Source of the DNA: a virus
IMG/VR virus record: IMGVR_UViG_3300034073_000928
Coordinates: 1-20,311 of that record
Direction: 5' to 3' (one strand)
Length of the DNA: 20,311 bases
The notes under the pieces are model-generated. The model saw nothing but the letters and a program-made list of their open reading frames with translations. It did not search any database and was not told the DNA's origin. This document shows, piece by piece, positions 3,787 through 11,183 of the stretch. The position numbers were made by a program, and so were the translations under genes. Numbering within the stretch: position 1 is the first letter of the stretch; each line of letters opens with the position of its first letter.

Positions 3787-4317
3787 TCAATCACAGCCTT
3801 TCCAAGCCCACGCCGCCCAACCACACCCATTTTCGGCTACCCCATAGTCAAACACTGCTTTCGCGGCACGCAAATTCAAAAACGGATCAAACAAATCCTG
3901 CACACCAGAAACAATGCTGACCGTTTGCAGATATCCATTCGGATAATACTTCGTTTGCTGAACCCAAAAAACATTTATCTGCGTCAAACCAACAGAACCT
4001 TTCACACCATCAACCGTGTTGGGGTCGCTCGCATTTACCTGTGTTGCATCACATCGGCTTTCGCGAAACATCACAGCATCCAAATCACGCAAATCTTTTT
4101 CATCCCAACCAGCCGCAACAGCAACCGACCACCATTGACCACACTTCGCGTCACCATCAACGATCAACGGTGCAACCGTTGTTGTCGTCGTGGTGTTAGC
4201 CAAAGTGCTAACACTTTTGGGAACAGTTGCAGTAGGTGCAACCGCTTGCGAAGTTGCGCCAAGCGCAATCAGAAACGAAGCGGTAGTTGCGAAAAACAAA
4301 CCTGCAAGGAATTTCAT
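3787..4317 (-). CDS. Secreted lytic transglycosylase-like (SLT/lysozyme-fold) protein
   Basis: This 176-residue protein opens with a signal peptide (Lys2, hydrophobic 4-20, likely cleavage near ATSQA). A Thr-rich linker (about 30-48, six Thr in a row) and a compact domain follow. The domain holds MFRESRC (83-89) with the probable catalytic Glu86 and SVGLTQIN (108-115), the two hallmarks of soluble transglycosylase folds. Cys59, Cys89, Cys164 and Cys174 may form disulfides. It would cut peptidoglycan outside the cytoplasmic membrane. It is the last gene of the replication operon, next to the initiator and away from the lysis genes. The start has GCAGGATGAT upstream. A role in host wall remodelling, lysis or virion-linked entry cannot be settled. 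Confidence 0.75.
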   Translation of the reverse strand: MKFLAGLFFATTASFLIALGATSQAVAPTATVPKSVSTLANTTTTTTVAPLIVDGDAKCGQWWSVAVAAGWDEKDLRDLDAVMFRESRCDATQVNASDPNTVDGVKGSVGLTQINVFWVQQTKYYPNGYLQTVSIVSGVQDLFDPFLNLRAAKAVFDYGVAENGCGWAAWAWKGCD

Positions 4318-4318
4318 A

Positions 4319-5140
4319 TCATCCTGCTTTCATGTGTTCAAACCAAGCAATCGCCGCTTCCTGATATTCAGGTTCACGATGCCCGATGTCTGATTTCAAA
4401 TCATCCAAACTGCGGCGCGTATGAAAGTAAGCCGCCGCAAACGATTGTGCTTGTGCCACCGTCGGGGACACTTCCCGTTCCCTTTCGTGCTTACCATCGT
4501 AGTTGTTTTCCACTTCGTCTGACCAGCGACCTGCACGAAGCCAAGTCGCAGGATAAGCGATGTAGTTCTTGTCTTTCTGTGTGGTCTTGTATCGCTCAAC
4601 AGCCGCCATGATCGCTTCCACTGTTGGCGCATCACTTGCACGCATCACTTGTTGCCAAGCCTTATGTGCATCGCGTTTGGCTATCTTGCGTGGGTATGCG
4701 ATCCAGAATGCTTCAAATGCTTCTGGCGCAATATCTAGTTTCTTCGTATCTAGTTCTTCTAATGAAGTGCGGAAACCGAAGTTCGGTGAACCGACATTCG
4801 GAAACTGAACTTCGGTTGCGCATCCTGTCTGCGGTTCGTCATAGACAGTTGAGATTGTGCGCCACAACCCTTGCTTATCCTGAATGCGTGTGCGCACCAA
4901 ATAGCCTGCGGTTTCCAATTCCTTCAAAGCCGTAAGTATCGCCGCCCGACCTTCTGAACCTTCACGCGCAAGACTGTCAGCCGAAGTACGCCAATCATCA
5001 GGGCGAGACAACACGCAAGCCAACAGCCCACGCGCACGATATGAAAGCCGCTTGTCGCGTAACACATCGTTCCCGATGATGGTGAAATTGGTTGTCTTTC
5101 GTGCGCCACGAACGATCACGAATGTTTCCCCCTTAGCCAT
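4319..5140 (-). CDS. Phage replication initiator (winged-helix, DnaD/O-like)
   Basis: This 273-residue protein has an N-terminal winged helix (about 13-105), with [19 protein letters not shown], then [18 protein letters not shown] and a wing with [13 protein letters not shown] variable linker (106-140) is followed by a C-terminal domain starting [20 protein letters not shown] (142-161) and containing [17 protein letters not shown] (193-209). That pair is typical of phage replisome organisers that bind an origin and recruit the helicase loader or helicase. The linker coding DNA contains iterons, as in lambda O. The gene overlaps the upstream nuclease gene by 25 nt and has only a weak ribosome binding site (GAAGATTTGA), suggesting translational coupling. 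Confidence 0.82.
4732..4817 (-). other. Putative replication origin: three iterons plus AT-rich direct repeats
   Basis: Three near-identical 11-bp palindromes of the form CCGAAnTTCGG start at 4776, 4791 and 4805, about 14-15 bp apart. The first is perfect and the other two have one mismatch each. The outer pair also forms an 11-bp inverted repeat (4774-4784 with 4807-4817). Adjacent is an AT-richer stretch with two TATCTAGTT copies (4732-4740, 4747-4755), also 15 bp apart. All lie inside the initiator gene between its two domains, as in the lambda O gene. Confidence 0.6.
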
Positions 5141-5601: not shown

Positions 5602-6092
5602 TCGCCCTGCCCGTAATACTCTGCGAGCGCAGGCGCAACATAATCACGCCACACAGACAAACGCACCATCACCAATCCTTCACTACCCCAATCATCAGGC
5701 ATCAACACAGCGCGACACGGTTTGCGAAGCGAACCGAAATCCGCTTCGTTGCCACGCACCTGCTTTTCAATTCGCAACCACGCTGTCACCGCAGGCTGAA
5801 TTTGTTTCCCTGACTTCACTTCGTTTGCAAAGATTGGATCGTTCCACCGTTCTTCGTTCGCGTCACCGAACTTGTGCGATGGGGCAACACCCAACGCTTT
5901 GCGTGCGTCGCGTTGCTTCTTCAATCCTTTCCTTCGTGAGCGTCTGCCACGCGCAACAGCATCACCGCATCCTTTGATGCGTCGCTGACCGTCACGCGCT
6001 GGTTTGCCTAGCGTGCCAAACAAAGGACATCCATCAACTTTGCAATTGTCGCGTCTGCCTTCGCATTCACCCTTTCTTGGATCGCCCGACAT
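5598..6092 (-). CDS. Putative nuclease with N-terminal Cys cluster (EVKSG motif)
   Basis: This is a 164-residue basic protein. Four cysteines (Cys10, Cys17, Cys22, Cys42) in the first 45 residues may bind zinc. An Arg/Lys-rich linker (48-66) leads to HKFGDANEERWND (73-85) and NEVKSGKQIQPAVTAWLRIE (90-109). The Glu91-x-Lys93 with upstream Glu80/Glu81/Asp85 matches the phage PD-(D/E)XK type that resembles Holliday-junction resolvases ('W...EVKSG...'). The ATG has AAGGTGGTGAAGA upstream and lies 26 nt inside the WhiB gene. The neighbours are the annealing protein and the exonuclease, so a junction-resolving or recombination nuclease is reasonable but unproven. Confidence 0.62.
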   Translation of the reverse strand: MSGDPRKGECEGRRDNCKVDGCPLFGTLGKPARDGQRRIKGCGDAVARGRRSRRKGLKKQRDARKALGVAPSHKFGDANEERWNDPIFANEVKSGKQIQPAVTAWLRIEKQVRGNEADFGSLRKPCRAVLMPDDWGSEGLVMVRLSVWRDYVAPALAEYYGQGE

Positions 6093-6369
6093 TCTTCACC
6101 ACCTTCACTGCGTCAGCGAGCGATTGCCCGCGTTCAATTTCGTATCGCACCAATCGTCGTTGTCGTGGGGTCATGCCGCCGAACACGCCCCACTTATCAT
6201 CAACATCATCCAAGCCGATAACCAAATTCAAACACTGATCTGTCACCGAACATTCGGAACACAATTTCAATGCGGCATCAAATCTGGTTTCCTTCAATGC
6301 GTCAGGAAAGAACACATCAGATGGAACACCAACACATCGCGCTTCGTCACGCCACGCTTGTATCGCCAT
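6067..6369 (-). CDS. whiB: WhiB-family iron-sulfur transcription regulator
   Basis: The 100-residue product has Cys12, Cys37, Cys40 and Cys46, the Cx24CxxCx5C spacing of WhiB [4Fe-4S] clusters. The turn GVFGG (61-65) leads to the basic MTPRQRR segment. Most relatives have GVWGG or GIWGG, so the Phe is a variation in the sigma-factor-contacting loop. WhiB proteins are confined to actinobacteria and their phages and mobile elements, which supports an actinobacterial host. Phage versions, such as that of mycobacteriophage TM4, alter host transcription and can block superinfection. The ATG overlaps the annealing-protein stop as TGATG. Here it belongs to the replication transcription unit. Confidence 0.92.
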   Translation of the reverse strand: MAIQAWRDEARCVGVPSDVFFPDALKETRFDAALKLCSECSVTDQCLNLVIGLDDVDDKWGVFGGMTPRQRRLVRYEIERGQSLADAVKVVKNVGRSKKG

Positions 6370-7031
6370 CAAAAAGGTTCTTCATCTGCTGGCGCAGGCG
6401 TGCGCGGTGCTGGCTGTTCACCATTCATCAAAGCACCAATCACATTTGATGCTTCCTTGCTGGTCAGATCAGACAACTTGCCACCCAAATCGCGACCAAT
6501 CAAGTTCGCAATGTATGCAAGAAGGTCATCGTTGTTCATGTTGCGTTCGCGTGTCAGTTTGCCAAGCAAACCGATTTGCTTCTGCGTGATGTAACGATTT
6601 GCATTGTTGCCACCTGCGGCAACTTCCTGCCTTGCAGATGGGAATGCTTTGATGACGGTTGCAATTTGCTGGTCGCCATCCTGACGATTGCGCACTTCAT
6701 CTGCTGATGCAATCTTGCCTGTCGTATCGCACGCAAGTGCCGCCATGATACACCTGCCCCACGCAGATGTTTCTGCGTTCATCACCATGCTGTCGCGTGT
6801 GAAGTTTGACTTTGGCACGCACGGTTCAATCGCAACCGCAACTGCTGGCATTGGATCATTGGGTGTCTTGTAGCAAGCGGCTACATACACAATGAATTCC
6901 TTGCCACCGATTTCTTTGATGGTGAATGGTTCTGCTGGATTGAATGGGCGAAGCACCGCTTCTGGATACTTCGCTTTCAATTGTGCAATCCGTTCTGCAA
7001 CGGTTAGATATCCGTCTAGTTCAAATGTCAT
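6369..7031 (-). CDS. ERF-like single-strand DNA annealing/binding protein with SSB-like tail
   Basis: The 220-residue protein starts MTFELDGYLTVAERIAQLKA, a start common among actinophage single-strand annealing/binding proteins. A strand-rich core follows (43-75), then NAETSAWGRCIMAALACDTT (85-104), the helix-rich signature of this group. A second helical domain (about 148-203, TQKQIGLLGKLT ... LSDLTSKEASNVIGAL) is often appended to such proteins. The last residues, PADEEPF, are an acidic-aromatic tip resembling bacterial SSB tails (DDIPF). It is ATGA-coupled to the YqaJ exonuclease, which suggests a Red-type exonuclease/annealase pair. The alternative is a single-strand binding protein. Confidence 0.75.
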   Translation of the reverse strand: MTFELDGYLTVAERIAQLKAKYPEAVLRPFNPAEPFTIKEIGGKEFIVYVAACYKTPNDPMPAVAVAIEPCVPKSNFTRDSMVMNAETSAWGRCIMAALACDTTGKIASADEVRNRQDGDQQIATVIKAFPSARQEVAAGGNNANRYITQKQIGLLGKLTRERNMNNDDLLAYIANLIGRDLGGKLSDLTSKEASNVIGALMNGEQPAPRTPAPADEEPF

Positions 7032-7972
7032 TTCTTTTTTCCCTTCGTTGTGCGGAACACCCTGAATGGTGATCCTTCTTTTTCATACTGTGCAACCAAG
7101 TCAGGATGACTTGCCCGCATTCGTGCAACATCAACTGTTGCGCGACCCTTCTGCTGTTTCCATGTCACAGCAACTTCACCATTGACCGTTCCCACTTCCG
7201 CATCCAACAGCATCCGTGCAAGATGGTCTTTGGCATCCTTTTCAAGTGCTTCCGCTTCTGCGCTCAACTTGCGTGCATCATTCAATGCTTCAATCCACAT
7301 CAAAGCATCGCCGCCCAATTCAACCGTTCGTGGTTCAACCTTGAAAAGCGTTGCAATCTGTTCAGCAGAAAAGTTGTCAATGTCATCAGGCATCGGTTCG
7401 CCACGCAACACCCATTCACCAAACACTTCTGCTTCCAGACGCAACGCGCTAAACGCATCCGTGTTCGTCGGGCATTCAATCACCGACAGTTTCAAATCGC
7501 GATCCAGCACCGACAAAAACACAGGGCAACCTAGAACCATTTGTTGCGCCCACATCTGCCACAGATACATCGGCGGCACATCTTCAATATCGCGGATGGC
7601 ATAGCGCGAAGTGGTCTTGCATTCCACGCATACTGCGGGTGCGGATTCATTGTCCACACCATCGGCGGTGATCAGCCATTGACCATCACGATACAGGGAT
7701 TGCGGCGTGATGAACTTCGTACCCAACTTGTCGGATGCGTATTGAAGCAACATCGCTTCGGCGTAATTGCCTGTGGTCATCGCGCTGGTGGCTGGTTGCT
7801 CATTCACTTGCATCGTTGCTTTCTCAACGAACAAGTCGCCGCGTGTGCGGAACTGTGATGCGCCCATCAAGATCGGTGCATCGCTTCCGCCGAAGGACAC
7901 CAATCCTTCGGGTGTGCGTTTGCGTTGCGCCAACCATTCGGTGCGGTCTGTTGGTTTGATAATCAATTCCAT
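7028..7972 (-). CDS. YqaJ-type recombination exonuclease
   Basis: The 314-residue protein has the PD-(D/E)XK core of the YqaJ/lambda exonuclease family. It contains an N-terminal WLAQRK and FGGSDAP (28-33), GNYAEA with Glu72, ITADG with Asp104 and VECKT with Glu117-x-Lys119. A helix with YLWQMWAQQMV (137-147) follows. A C-terminal helical part (about 215-270) is followed by a basic tail. It should degrade one strand of double-stranded ends to feed the annealing protein encoded next to it. The ATG overlaps the upstream stop as TAATG with AAAGGGGGG eight bases before; a GTG two codons earlier lies too close to that site. Confidence 0.9.
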   Translation of the reverse strand: MELIIKPTDRTEWLAQRKRTPEGLVSFGGSDAPILMGASQFRTRGDLFVEKATMQVNEQPATSAMTTGNYAEAMLLQYASDKLGTKFITPQSLYRDGQWLITADGVDNESAPAVCVECKTTSRYAIRDIEDVPPMYLWQMWAQQMVLGCPVFLSVLDRDLKLSVIECPTNTDAFSALRLEAEVFGEWVLRGEPMPDDIDNFSAEQIATLFKVEPRTVELGGDALMWIEALNDARKLSAEAEALEKDAKDHLARMLLDAEVGTVNGEVAVTWKQQKGRATVDVARMRASHPDLVAQYEKEGSPFRVFRTTKGKKK

Positions 7973-8157
7973 TACCACTGCCCCCCTTTGAATGCGATGC
8001 CGCCGAAGAAGATTGCCAATGCAAGCGCATCGGCTTTCTTGTATCGCTTTGCATCGGCATATTCACCCCATACTGCGATGCCATCTCGCGTATCGCGGTG
8101 CAACCACTTTTCTTCGGTGGCGTGTTTGATGCGCCAAGTGATATAGGTTTTTTTCAT
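7972..8157 (-). CDS. Hypothetical basic protein, 61 aa
   Basis: The product begins MKKTYITWRIKHATEEKWLH and ends with a hydrophobic IFFGGIAFKGGQW. The first two thirds look like a small beta-alpha domain (strand YITWRIKH, strand AVWGEY, helix DAKRYKKADALALAI). The ATG has AAGGGAAATAGCA upstream. Its stop overlaps the YqaJ start as TAATG, and the SprT-like gene ends two bases before its ribosome binding region. No family is recognised. The position suggests a helper in recombination, without further evidence. Confidence 0.6.
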   Translation of the reverse strand: MKKTYITWRIKHATEEKWLHRDTRDGIAVWGEYADAKRYKKADALALAIFFGGIAFKGGQW

Positions 8158-8159
8158 TG

Positions 8160-8903
8160 CTATTTCCCTTCCGTGTTGTTGTTGATTACATCTTGTGTTG
8201 GGGGTGTTACAGGGTTTGGAAGTTCAAACTGCACGAACTTCCACCCCTGCTTTTCAATGATGCGATCAACGCTGTACCCCCATCGCTTTACTTCCACAAA
8301 GTTGATTTCGCACTTCCATCGTTTCTGCCATGTATGCCGCAGGCAGTAATAGAACATTCGGTGATGTGGGTCACGGTTCTTTCCTTCCGTACGGATTGCA
8401 GGACAAGCAATGTGGGCAAGTTCATGCGCCAAGATTGCCCATGTCCATTTGCTTCGCCATTCATTCTGTGTTGGATCAATGCGAACCTGAATCCTGCCGC
8501 TTGACCACCATGCATGACCGCCTGTGCGCCCCCAATCGCGCCCGCGCACAAGTTCAATTCGTGGAAGTGGTTTGCCTTTATGCCAATCCGCCATCAACTT
8601 CCAGATGCGTTCGGCTTCGGCGTGAATGATGCGTTCGCGGATTGCGTCGCACCTTTCCTGCAACTTGGCTGGTTCGGCGCGTCTGCGTGCAACCTGACGC
8701 TTCTGGCGTACCTTCTCGCGGGTACTTGCCGCACGCTGTTCACGCTTCGCTTCCAACGCAGGTGCAATCCGTTCCACCAACCTTCCGTTCTTGGATGAAC
8801 ATGGCAGACAATATCGGCGCACATCATCCTTTCGCGGTTTCGTCGGTGCGAGAATCCCCGCATCGCATTGTGGGCATTTCCATCTTGCTTGTTTCGTTGC
8901 CAT
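8160..8903 (-). CDS. SprT-like zinc metalloprotease with N-terminal zinc ribbon
   Basis: This 247-residue protein has an N-terminal zinc ribbon (CPQC 10-13, CLPC 32-35), a basic coiled linker (about 50-95) and a SprT-like domain. The active-site helix reads WAILAHELAHIAC (155-167), an HExxH with a downstream DPHHRMF (179-184) that could supply the third zinc ligand. C-terminal residues (WKFVQFELP) are strand-rich. SprT/Spartan relatives cleave DNA-bound proteins; the phage role is not established. An upstream in-frame extension of 56 codons reads through the previous gene. The ATG at 8903 has GGAAGGAA in front, so it is chosen. It lies in the recombination operon. Confidence 0.8.
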   Translation of the reverse strand: MATKQARWKCPQCDAGILAPTKPRKDDVRRYCLPCSSKNGRLVERIAPALEAKREQRAASTREKVRQKRQVARRRAEPAKLQERCDAIRERIIHAEAERIWKLMADWHKGKPLPRIELVRGRDWGRTGGHAWWSSGRIQVRIDPTQNEWRSKWTWAILAHELAHIACPAIRTEGKNRDPHHRMFYYCLRHTWQKRWKCEINFVEVKRWGYSVDRIIEKQGWKFVQFELPNPVTPPTQDVINNNTEGK

Positions 8904-8937
8904 CGTCGTTCCTTCCGATGATGTTGTTGGTTGTTGA

Positions 8938-9324
8938 TTACTTGTCGTGCTGTCTGTCTGACTTTGGATCGCGCACTTCATACTTGCGACCTTCCGACTT
9001 TCGGAAGATGTCGCGTCTGTCATTGATGAGCGCACGCACCGTTGCTTCTGAGCATTCACCAATCGTTGCAAGTTCCTTCACGGTGACTTCTGCGAAGATG
9101 TTGTTCCTGCACCATGCAATGATTGCTTCTTTGCCACCATCAAACGGAAGCAACGACACATCATCTTGAAGTGCGTTGTGTCCGTTGCGTGCGTACCCGC
9201 GTTCACCGCCGACGATGTGTAGTGAACCGTCGCGATCAATCGTCAAGAAGGTGAACACGCCTTGTGGCATTCGCTTCCAATAAAGCGTGTCACCTTTTTT
9301 CAGGTTGCTTATTTCGTTTGTCAT
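8938..9324 (-). CDS. Winged-helix/HTH-type early protein, 128 aa
   Basis: This is the first gene of the replication transcription unit. Residues 8-45 look like a small beta-barrel (LKKGDTLYWKRMPQGVFTFL, then a Gly-Glu-Arg-Gly turn). Residues 79-118 form a helix-turn-helix with a basic wing (EVTVKELATIGECSEATVRA, then RRDIFRKSEGRKYEV). Such an arrangement suggests a DNA-binding regulator, possibly autoregulating the promoter just upstream, but this is inference. The start has an excellent ribosome binding site (AAGGGAACAAC) in the short leader behind the hairpin. Confidence 0.65.
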   Translation of the reverse strand: MTNEISNLKKGDTLYWKRMPQGVFTFLTIDRDGSLHIVGGERGYARNGHNALQDDVSLLPFDGGKEAIIAWCRNNIFAEVTVKELATIGECSEATVRALINDRRDIFRKSEGRKYEVRDPKSDRQHDK

Positions 9325-9339
9325 GTTGTTCCCTTTTCC

Positions 9340-9396
9340 ATCGGGTGTTCCTTATCCCGATGATTCAAGTATATCGGATGCCACCAAGCACACAAA
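9340..9396 (-). promoter_or_regulatory. Promoter with 5'-end hairpin leader, copy 1
   Basis: On the minus strand a TATACT -10 box (9373-9368) is preceded by a weak TTTGTG -35-like box at 17 bases. Exactly seven bases after the -10 box comes the hairpin ATCGGG-ATAAGGAACA-CCCGAT (9361-9340). The transcript probably starts at its 5' base. The hairpin loop contains AAGGAA, itself like a ribosome binding site. The layout is repeated at 3571-3603. Confidence 0.6.
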
Positions 9397-9514
9397 TCCA
9401 AAACACCCCCAAAACAGCCAGAAAAGATGCATATTCAAAAAATGTTTTCGCCAACCCCAATATCTACGCCACCAAAAAAATTTACAAAAAGTTAGTTGTG
9501 ACCAAATCAGGAAA
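9397..9514. other. A-tract-rich non-coding region upstream of the early promoter
   Basis: No convincing gene on either strand. The stretch is rich in A-runs (aaaaaaa near 9475, aaaaa near 9486) and contains TTTACAAAAA at 9481. The same 10-mer starts at 3634 upstream of the second copy of the promoter. A-tracts here could bend DNA or serve as an UP-like element. Confidence 0.35.
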
Positions 9515-9550
9515 CGGGTGCGCACGCACAAAATCTGCGTGCAACACCCG
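9515..9550 (-). terminator. Strong hairpin, probable terminator of the late unit
   Basis: Minus-strand hairpin with stems CGGGTG/CACCCG and GCACGCA/TGCGTGC around a seven-base loop, followed by TTTCCTGATTT. It lies 37 nt beyond the stop of the gene ending at 9587 and ahead of the copy 1 promoter. The T-run is weaker than in a classic intrinsic terminator, so efficiency is uncertain. Confidence 0.6.
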
Positions 9551-9586
9551 CACCCGACGCAATGCCGAAGGGGGGAACATCGCGCA

Positions 9587-9844
9587 CTAGAAACCTAACA
9601 CAACAACCTTCTGCACCATCCCAACAGGAATCGCAAGCACACTGTCCAAACTTCCATCATTCGTTATTGACTGCGCAATAACAACATGACCCTGCTTCTT
9701 ATCCGCCAACAACCAGCCAACACTTTCAACAACACACGGATCAGAATCAATATCCGCTTCATCACACCAACTACCTTCATTGATTGCGTGCGCATCATGC
9801 CACACAACAAGAACACGCGAATGCTCAATCGTCGTCATCTTCAT
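9587..9844 (-). CDS. Hypothetical protein, 85 aa
   Basis: The product begins MKMTTIEHSRVLVVWHDAHA and continues with an acidic segment (EGSWCDEADIDSDPCVVESV). A strand-rich C-terminal half follows (GWLLADKKQGHVVIAQSIT ... VLAIPVGMVQKVVVLGF). The alternation of beta strands suggests an SH3-like or Sm-like small barrel. The 'WxDAxxxxxxW' start is seen in small actinophage proteins, but I cannot name a family. The ATG has GAAGGTGCTG just before it, so it was preferred over a GTG two codons earlier. It is the last gene before the late terminator. Confidence 0.6.
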   Translation of the reverse strand: MKMTTIEHSRVLVVWHDAHAINEGSWCDEADIDSDPCVVESVGWLLADKKQGHVVIAQSITNDGSLDSVLAIPVGMVQKVVVLGF

Positions 9845-9896
9845 CAGCACCTTCGCAAGTAATAACCCACCGACGCAATTTGCATTGGCACAACAT
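9825..9896 (-). CDS. 23-residue Cys-containing microprotein
   Basis: A tiny frame starts at an ATG overlapping the stop of the phosphoesterase gene (TGATG), with GAAGG upstream. It reads MLCQCKLRRWVITCEGADED and ends in three more Asp. It has a CxC pair (3-5), Cys14, a basic-aromatic centre and a strongly acidic tail. It ends 20 nt inside the next gene. The coupling and the ordered composition suggest a real zinc-binding peptide, but its length makes the call tentative. Confidence 0.42.
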   Translation of the reverse strand: MLCQCKLRRWVITCEGADEDDDD

Positions 9897-10951
9897 CACC
9901 AGCCTTCACGCTTCCTGTCCTGACAAAAGATCGGTGCTTGCACCGTGATGTTCCGTTCAGGTGTCACGATTGCAAGTGCTTGCTGTGGTACTTCAAAACC
10001 GAAACCCATGATTGCGGCGAATTCATCCCACCCTTTCAGCGAACCATTGATGATCAGATGCGGCGTTGAAAGATAAGTGTGCCAATGACCCATCCAAAGT
10101 GTTCGGAAATTTTGACCCGTCTGCAAATACTTGTGTTCCTTCTTCGCACGCATCCGCATGATGGGCGGATAGATGCCACCGATACCGCCACCCCCATGAA
10201 CCTGATCACCATGCGTAATCAAATGACCGTGTTCATAAATCTTCAAGAACGCATCAGCCGAAGTAGGAATCAGAAACGACACCCGACTATCGGAAGCAAA
10301 ATATCTTTCAACCATCTTGGATAGCAACCAATCAAAGTTCGTCACCACCCGTTGCTTCATACGCGGCTTGCGGGTAGTGCGCCCATGATTGCCCACCACA
10401 CTGACCACTTGCACCTTCTTGAATTCGTCAGCCAACAAACCAACAGCACCCGCGATTTGTTCCGACCAATACAAACAACTTTCCAACATCGTTGCTTCAT
10501 TCGTATCCTTCAATTCTTCGTGGATGTCACCAGAAAAAATGTCGCCACCCAAAATCAAAACGATTCCGTCATACTTCACGCCAGCCAAATAGTGACGCGC
10601 CATCTTCACAACACCCTTCGCCCATCGTTCTAAGCGCATCTTCGCAATCGTTCGGTTATACGCATTCAACCCTTCCATTTCATCAGGGTTCACCACTTCA
10701 TCAAAATGGGTATCCGACAACAACGCCACAAGCATCGCCGCAGATGAACGCGGCTTCGCGGGTGACAACCAATGCGGCGGTTCAATCTCACTAGCGTTCG
10801 CAGTTTCAATGATCCGAATGATTTTGTTTGCTTCATCAACCGCTTGCGTCAAACGCTCATTCTCACGCCGCGCCAAATCGCGTTCCCGACGCAACCTGAC
10901 AATGGAAACTTCTTCCTGTGTTTCCGATTGCAATTCATCAGCGAACTTCAT
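9896..10951 (-). CDS. Calcineurin-like metallophosphoesterase (DNA exonuclease/phosphatase type)
   Basis: The 351-residue protein has an N-terminal coiled coil (about 12-50) and a metallophosphoesterase domain. All metal-binding boxes are visible: SDTH (79-82), GGDIF (135-139), VGNHGR (186-191), ITHGDQ (245-250) and GHWH (288-291). The NHGRTTRKPRMKQ stretch is typical of phage members. Such proteins are variously annotated as Mre11/SbcD-like nucleases or phosphatases; the substrate is unknown. The ATG has GGGGGGTTGTCCT upstream and lies 14 nt inside the HTH gene. It sits between the lysis genes and the terminator, so it is probably expressed with the structural genes, perhaps in DNA packaging or host DNA turnover. 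Confidence 0.85.
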   Translation of the reverse strand: MKFADELQSETQEEVSIVRLRRERDLARRENERLTQAVDEANKIIRIIETANASEIEPPHWLSPAKPRSSAAMLVALLSDTHFDEVVNPDEMEGLNAYNRTIAKMRLERWAKGVVKMARHYLAGVKYDGIVLILGGDIFSGDIHEELKDTNEATMLESCLYWSEQIAGAVGLLADEFKKVQVVSVVGNHGRTTRKPRMKQRVVTNFDWLLSKMVERYFASDSRVSFLIPTSADAFLKIYEHGHLITHGDQVHGGGGIGGIYPPIMRMRAKKEHKYLQTGQNFRTLWMGHWHTYLSTPHLIINGSLKGWDEFAAIMGFGFEVPQQALAIVTPERNITVQAPIFCQDRKREGW

Positions 10952-11183
10952 AGGACAACCCCCCACGCCTATACAGCGAAATCGTAGAACTAGAAACAAC
11001 AAAACCGCGACGCTTCAAAACCGTTGCCAAGACCTGCGCCGAAATGCTTTTGTCATGCAACGCATCCACAAAATCCTTGCGGTCATCAGCCGCAAGCGCA
11101 TCCGCGATTTCCTGCAACAAGCGCGTATTTGGTTTTCCCTTGTCCCCAATTTCATTCTGAATTTCGTTGTTCAACAACCCCAC
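10938..11183 (-). CDS. Small helix-turn-helix protein (GTG start)
   Basis: This 81-residue protein has a helical N-terminus (PNTRLLQEIADALAADDRKD) and a helix-turn-helix of the form SISAQVLATVLKRRGFVVSS followed by STISLYRRGG. The pattern is that of actinophage HTH proteins often placed upstream of metallophosphoesterase genes, or of terminase small-subunit DNA-binding domains. The start is a GTG with GAAGGGGC upstream, lying 32 nt inside the membrane-protein gene. It overlaps the phosphoesterase gene by 14 nt, so the two products may act together on DNA. Confidence 0.65.
   Translation of the reverse strand: MGLLNNEIQNEIGDKGKPNTRLLQEIADALAADDRKDFVDALHDKSISAQVLATVLKRRGFVVSSSTISLYRRGGLSYEVR

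Follow-up and report, generated by a model that had tools for sequence, protein, structure and literature searches.

The probable replication origin of uncultivated freshwater actinobacterial viruses can be placed to within about 90 bp, inside the coding sequence of their own replication initiator. In the window (the whole 20,311-nucleotide stretch that was analyzed), the initiator gene combines spaced dyads, an adjoining stretch of low duplex stability, codons for a disordered linker, and a synonymous freeze over those codons. From this combination, we infer with a probability of about 86% that the linker DNA is the virus's replication origin. The initiator would bind the dyads, the A-rich stretch beside them would melt, and replication would start at the linker. 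The initial annotation had read the repeats as an origin, and judging from the comparisons below, that reading is most likely right.

The initiator and its linker

The initiator gene (4319-5140, minus strand) encodes a 273-amino-acid protein of the HTH_36/phrog_270 type. Its match to phrog_270, “replication initiation protein” (E value of 6e-28, 99 bits), confirmed the earlier assignment of the gene as a replication initiator, and further replication-initiation and primosomal PHROGs were matched over both halves of the protein. HTH_36 was the only Pfam family found at an E value of ≤0.1 in the window protein, with no family of the lambda O type. This match covered residues 31-81 and scored 24.2 bits, 0.8 below the Pfam cutoff of 25, and HTH_36 was matched at an E value of ≤0.1 by all 30 aligned homologues (the window protein and 29 others). 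RepA_N (PF06970) had no match in the window protein or the 29 homologues.

We used AlphaFold2 with a 30-sequence alignment to model the protein (overall pTM, only 0.38). The model has a winged-helix DNA-binding domain (codons 5-100; 4841-5128, minus strand) with pLDDT values mostly of 74-91, followed by a predicted disordered linker (codons 107-137; 4730-4822, minus strand) and a helical C-domain, presumed to bind a partner (codons 140-202; 4535-4723, minus strand). Helices in the C-domain were predicted at residues 140-148, 155-167, 174-187, and 197-202, and this domain matched PHROGs 9327/9474, “primosomal/replication initiation.” The pLDDT fell below 50 exactly over residues 107-137. The repeats had been said to encode a linker between two domains, and the model agrees: the predicted linker DNA matches the span first noted, 4732-4817, almost to the base and holds all of the putative origin elements.

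Against the viral structure library, the best match was the “RepA-like replication initiator” of Gordonia phage VanLee (3e-13). Foldseek against the PDB returned Geobacillus primosomal DnaB (5wtn) as a weak best match (E value of 1.4e-3) and, lower in the list, a GlpD-DnaD model, with TM values of 0.18-0.28 and no match at an E value of ≤0.001. A sequence search of solved structures found nothing significant. Bacterial genomes searched with the window protein gave no match, and searching with an alignment gave only distant matches to the N-domain.

Neighboring genes

All of the neighbors described here lie on the minus strand. One base past the initiator stop codon begins a gene for a secreted-looking lysozyme/transglycosylase-like protein (3787-4317; Pfam SLT_3, 1.6e-6), an unusual neighbor for a replication gene. 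A WhiB transcription factor (6067-6372; PF02467, 2.4e-14) points to an actinobacterial host. A RecE-like/YqaJ exonuclease (6369-7978; phrog_434, 2e-47) lies beside a conserved phrog_23738 protein of unknown function, which may be its annealing partner. Within 8160-11002, beside the recombination genes, we noted a SprT-like metalloprotease candidate that scored below the cutoff and an exonuclease of phrog_284 that weakly resembles metallophosphoesterases. A ParB N-terminal-like protein is encoded at 125-625 (PF02195, 1e-6; phrog_723). Neither a helicase nor a loader gene turned up in the window genes that were scanned.

Iterons and an A-rich element in the linker codons

Three 11-bp units of the form CCGAAnTTCGG can be read directly in the linker DNA, as first described. 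Iteron C (CCGAAGTTCGG; coding strand, CCGAACTTCGG) at 4776-4786 is a perfect palindrome, while iterons B (CCGACATTCGG; coding strand, CCGAATGTCGG; 4791-4801, codon phase 1) and A (CTGAACTTCGG; coding strand, CCGAAGTTCAG; 4805-4815, codon phase 2) each carry one mismatch. A degenerate fourth unit, iteron D (ATGAAGTGCGG; coding strand, CCGCACTTCAT), matches at 8 of 11 positions and lies at 4762-4772. The spacing is 14 bp from D to C, 15 bp from C to B, and 14 bp from B to A, and the spacers between the palindromes are A/T-rich (TGAA and AAA on the plus strand). Next to the iterons is a putative DNA unwinding element, A-rich on the coding strand (4730-4762, minus strand), with two AACTAGATA repeats and an AGAAGAAC motif (AAGAAC, 4753-4758). 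The two plus-strand TATCTAGTT repeats noted earlier beside the palindromes are present at 4732-4740 and 4747-4755, 15 bp apart, with no other copy in the window. The least stable 40-bp stretch of the initiator gene adjoins the iterons and begins 46 codons after GYL, the motif that ends the HTH.

The 20-kb window holds five CCGAAnTTCGG sites with at most one mismatch, compared to 0.74 expected, and none of 100 shuffles reached five. A triple cluster of similar dyads occurs in the window only at 4776-4815, and a 32-kb relative (L008, G001) has one at this position and nowhere else. When the codons of the initiator gene were shuffled synonymously with the protein kept, at least three sites arose in 8 of 5,000 shuffles and such a cluster in none. 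A search of viral contigs for the exact double-palindrome pattern gave no matches, as expected given that the copies are degenerate.

DNA-level constraint in homologues

Homologues were drawn from IMG/VR. In a near set of 13 sequences (the window and relatives of about 65 to 93% identity), synonymous difference in same-residue comparisons was 0.107 over codons 109-136 versus 0.316 elsewhere (permutation P of 5e-5), so that synonymous change in the linker is about 3-fold below that in the rest of the gene. The lowest 28-codon synonymous window of the gene was codons 116-143. The CCGCACTTC core of iteron D was kept in 13 of 13 homologues, with the CC of the first codon pair present as CCGC or ACCGC. 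In L042 to L044, a 15-bp insertion adds a whole unit, which results in four good copies. Residues between the copies have changed in L006 (S to L) and L007 (F to N) while the copies themselves were kept, the sole exception being one synonymous C/T change in copy B of L007.

We then compared 59 pairs with ≤60% protein identity from a far set of 15 relatives. Same-residue codon difference was 0.686 in the HTH and 0.652 in the C-domain, versus 0.292 in the iterons and 0.142 in the A-rich stretch. By synonymous divergence, the A-rich stretch is the best-conserved DNA of the gene, although it codes for a disordered linker. In the freshwater clade, this stretch usually reads TTTAGAAGAACTATCTAAGAAGAACTTAGATA, and the window carries the variant with two AACTAGATA repeats. 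Alignment, the check proposed at the outset, thus found the palindromes kept at synonymous positions in both sets. An antisense overlapping gene was considered as a cause of the freeze and rejected, as no antisense frame is open across the linker in all homologues.

The alignments also differed at the gene start. The first eight codons of the initiators of L005, L006, and L008 read VAWGGGRM or FAFGGAQM, compared to MAKGETFV in the window, and their true start is probably different from that of the window. In L004, codon 3 counted from the aligned start is an in-frame TAG (MA*GETF) and the gene is otherwise intact; a different start codon or a sequencing error is the probable explanation.

The layout across the initiator family

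We assembled 54 nonredundant initiators, including lambda O, from named phages and viral contigs; some counts are on 53 genes, and all pooled counts treat related genes as independent. The best 13- to 16-bp self-match lay 10 to 75 codons after GYL in 44 of the 54, and the linker self-match was above 95% of synonymous shuffles in 23 of the 54 examined. By this one-period score, the window gene is not among the 23 because its spacing alternates between 14 and 15 bp; its own test is the palindrome cluster. There were no clear 13- to 16-bp iterons in the linkers of REQ2, RedFox, Attoomi, and L110.

Both halves of the layout exceeded what synonymous shuffling produced. CCGA-N1-3-TCGG sites numbered 77 in the linkers of 53 genes versus 44.5 (maximum, 57) in shuffles. 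For AAG(A/G)AC (AAGRAC), there were 63 sites versus 24.5 (maximum, 33), with pairs 12 to 16 bp apart in 22 genes versus 2.8 (maximum, 7). This second motif was picked after viewing the data; as a control, an unbiased ranking of 2,987 hexamers was run and gave the same two elements, iteron and A-rich. AAG(A/G)AC uses all three frames, even inside one gene (offsets 2, 0, and 1 in Lactobacillus phage phiEF-1.1). The least stable 40 bp fell inside the linker zone in 51 of 53 genes versus 31.4 (maximum, 42) in shuffles, and two plasmid replicons had the same element order, judged by eye. Two DnaA signals were tried for the A-rich element and rejected, neither being enriched: coding-strand DnaA-trio runs, made up of [T/A]A[G/A] triplets (2.30 versus 2.11 in shuffles; maximum, 2.32), and coding-strand DnaA-like boxes (50 versus 43.4; maximum, 55).

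In a further group of relatives (L082, L087, L089, and L094 to L105), similarity to the window protein mostly stops at residues 112-146, just past the A-rich element, and in L095 it stops at residue 182. A break at 112-146 suggests exchange of the C-domain behind a cassette of N-domain and putative origin. Judging from these alignments, the winged helix, the iterons, and the A-rich element seem to form a single unit, to which different C-domains are attached.

Other explanations for the repeats

The repeats could be a by-product of a functional repetitive peptide linker, with DNA likeness following from protein likeness. Copies B and C do encode PNVG/PNFG, and most family iterons share a frame (63 of the 77 sites are in phase 0), so that the peptide is repetitive too. 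However, copy A encodes TEVQ: with 14- and then 15-bp spacing, it is out of frame with B and C, and the DNA repeat is therefore not simply a peptide repeat. The initial suggestion that a repetitive peptide is the price of keeping binding sites in coding DNA accordingly holds for copies B and C but not for copy A, which adds nothing to the peptide repeat. In addition, synonymous codons are frozen in the linker and the A-rich stretch, the sites are seldom recreated by synonymous shuffling, the A-rich repeats fall in all three frames, and the linker is predicted to be disordered. We consider a peptide-level cause very unlikely. Hardly credible, in our judgment, is the idea that the palindromes fold into a hairpin in the initiator mRNA and so regulate its translation or stability. 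The linker RNA of the window folds at −25.5 kcal/mol (z of −5.35), but any palindrome cluster folds, and of 53 family members, only 27 had a z below −2, whereas the direct repeats are retained. Insertion of a whole unit alters hairpin geometry without disturbing the period, DNA constraint peaks in the A-rich stretch, which the hairpin does not include, and there was no Rfam match.

The sites might also bind the initiator for copy control or autoregulation, or bind another protein such as one like ParB, with the working origin elsewhere. Since the window is a linear fragment of 20 kb, a further origin could lie outside it, and a ParB_N-like protein is encoded within it. Nevertheless, the sites are mid-gene, and no similar cluster occurs near the gene start or at any other place in the window or the 32-kb relative. 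The adjoining low-stability element, which is more strongly conserved, is what an origin needs, and the layout recurs in dozens of initiator genes. Purely regulatory sites are thus improbable to a high degree. Cumulative GC skew was uninformative about origin position: it tracked gene orientation and did not clearly switch at the initiator, in the window as well as in six relatives, three of them with end repeats and three lacking them.

A model for initiation

For an origin in the linker codons, we propose that the winged-helix N-domain would bind the four dyad-symmetric iterons at their 14- to 15-bp spacing (4762-4815). The assembled complex would strain the adjoining A-rich element (4730-4762), which would open, and the C-domain would bring host helicase/primosome machinery to the opened element. 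The winged-helix Rep proteins TrfA and RepE bind one strand of the DNA unwinding element (DUE) in a sequence-specific manner (PMC4081077), which offers a possible mechanism for the A-rich repeats. Since the linker peptide is free to vary, selection at the DNA level may set much of its sequence.

The layout is common to some 50 related initiator genes, which implies that part of the linker is written to suit the DNA. The linker would be a clear example of a protein segment in which DNA function largely decides the residues. It also yields a comparative rule, that a synonymous freeze plus repeats in an initiator linker can point to origins, usable on many genomes of phages and plasmids in which the only annotation is “helix-turn-helix protein.” The less expected outcome was the highly conserved A-rich element, which makes the reader of phage unwinding elements a directly testable question. 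Tentatively, and with less than even confidence, we suggest that a bipartite intragenic origin is common to the HTH_36-type initiators of phages and plasmids, both actinobacterial and Firmicute. The A-rich half of this origin (in the freshwater clade, about TTTAGAAGAACTATCTAAGAAGAACTTAGATA; more widely, AAG(A/G)AC repeats 12 to 16 bp apart) would be sequence specific, more constrained than the iterons, and placed in all three frames. The factor that reads it, probably as single-stranded DNA, might be better conserved than the helix that binds the iterons, and a cassette of N-domain, iterons, and A-rich element may be transferred whole and combined with different C-domains.

Comparison with known systems

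The lambda origin lies in O, in the linker between the DNA-binding and P-binding domains, and O still complements after in-frame deletions in the AT-rich part (PMC6022878). The lambda record annotates four iterons inside O. As proposed for the window, four dyad-symmetric iterons come first in the direction of transcription and an A-rich unwinding stretch next, all in codons of a flexible linker. The likeness to lambda O that was first proposed thus stands for layout but not for family: in Pfam, the window protein has a match to HTH_36 and none to a lambda O family, and lambda iterons start 20 to 24 bp apart versus 14 to 15 bp in the window. SPP1 oriL has direct repeats and an AT-rich DUE within gene 38, the replisome organizer (PMC6316719). 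We liken it to the window by layout, with repeats and an AT-rich stretch inside an initiator gene; SPP1 has a second origin, oriR.

Among plasmids, the pSK41 origin lies in rep, in a dispensable linker, and pPR9 is a working replicon whose N-domain, of the pfam13730 (HTH_36) type, is similar to a phage replication protein (PMC5703833). RepA_N iterons are semipalindromic direct repeats converging on an A tract (PMC7145576), and the window resembles them in the A/T-rich spacers between its palindromes. The RepA_N replicons pSK41 and pTZ2162 have an origin in linker codons in the central part of rep, as proposed for the window, and likewise a winged-helix N-domain (PMC5703833, PMC7145576), although the window protein lacks a RepA_N match and its C-domain is not of the pSK41 type by the searches made. 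Among actinobacteriophages, “RepA-like replication initiator” or HTH DNA-binding proteins (for example, those of Gordonia phage VanLee, Arthrobacter phage Tank, and Rhodococcus phage Whack) have homologous N-domains at 31 to 56% identity. Several members of this group have linker repeats plus A-rich repeats of the window's kind, while their iteron sequences, and often their C-domains, differ. Taken together, an intragenic origin with iterons and an unwinding element is a known arrangement (lambda O, SPP1 oriL, and RepA_N plasmids), to which the window probably adds a case. Two points go beyond the known cases: the winged helix, iterons, and A-rich element seem to form one unit with varying C-domains attached, and, as judged from codon differences between relatives with ≤60% protein identity, DNA-level constraint is stronger on the A-rich element than on the iterons.
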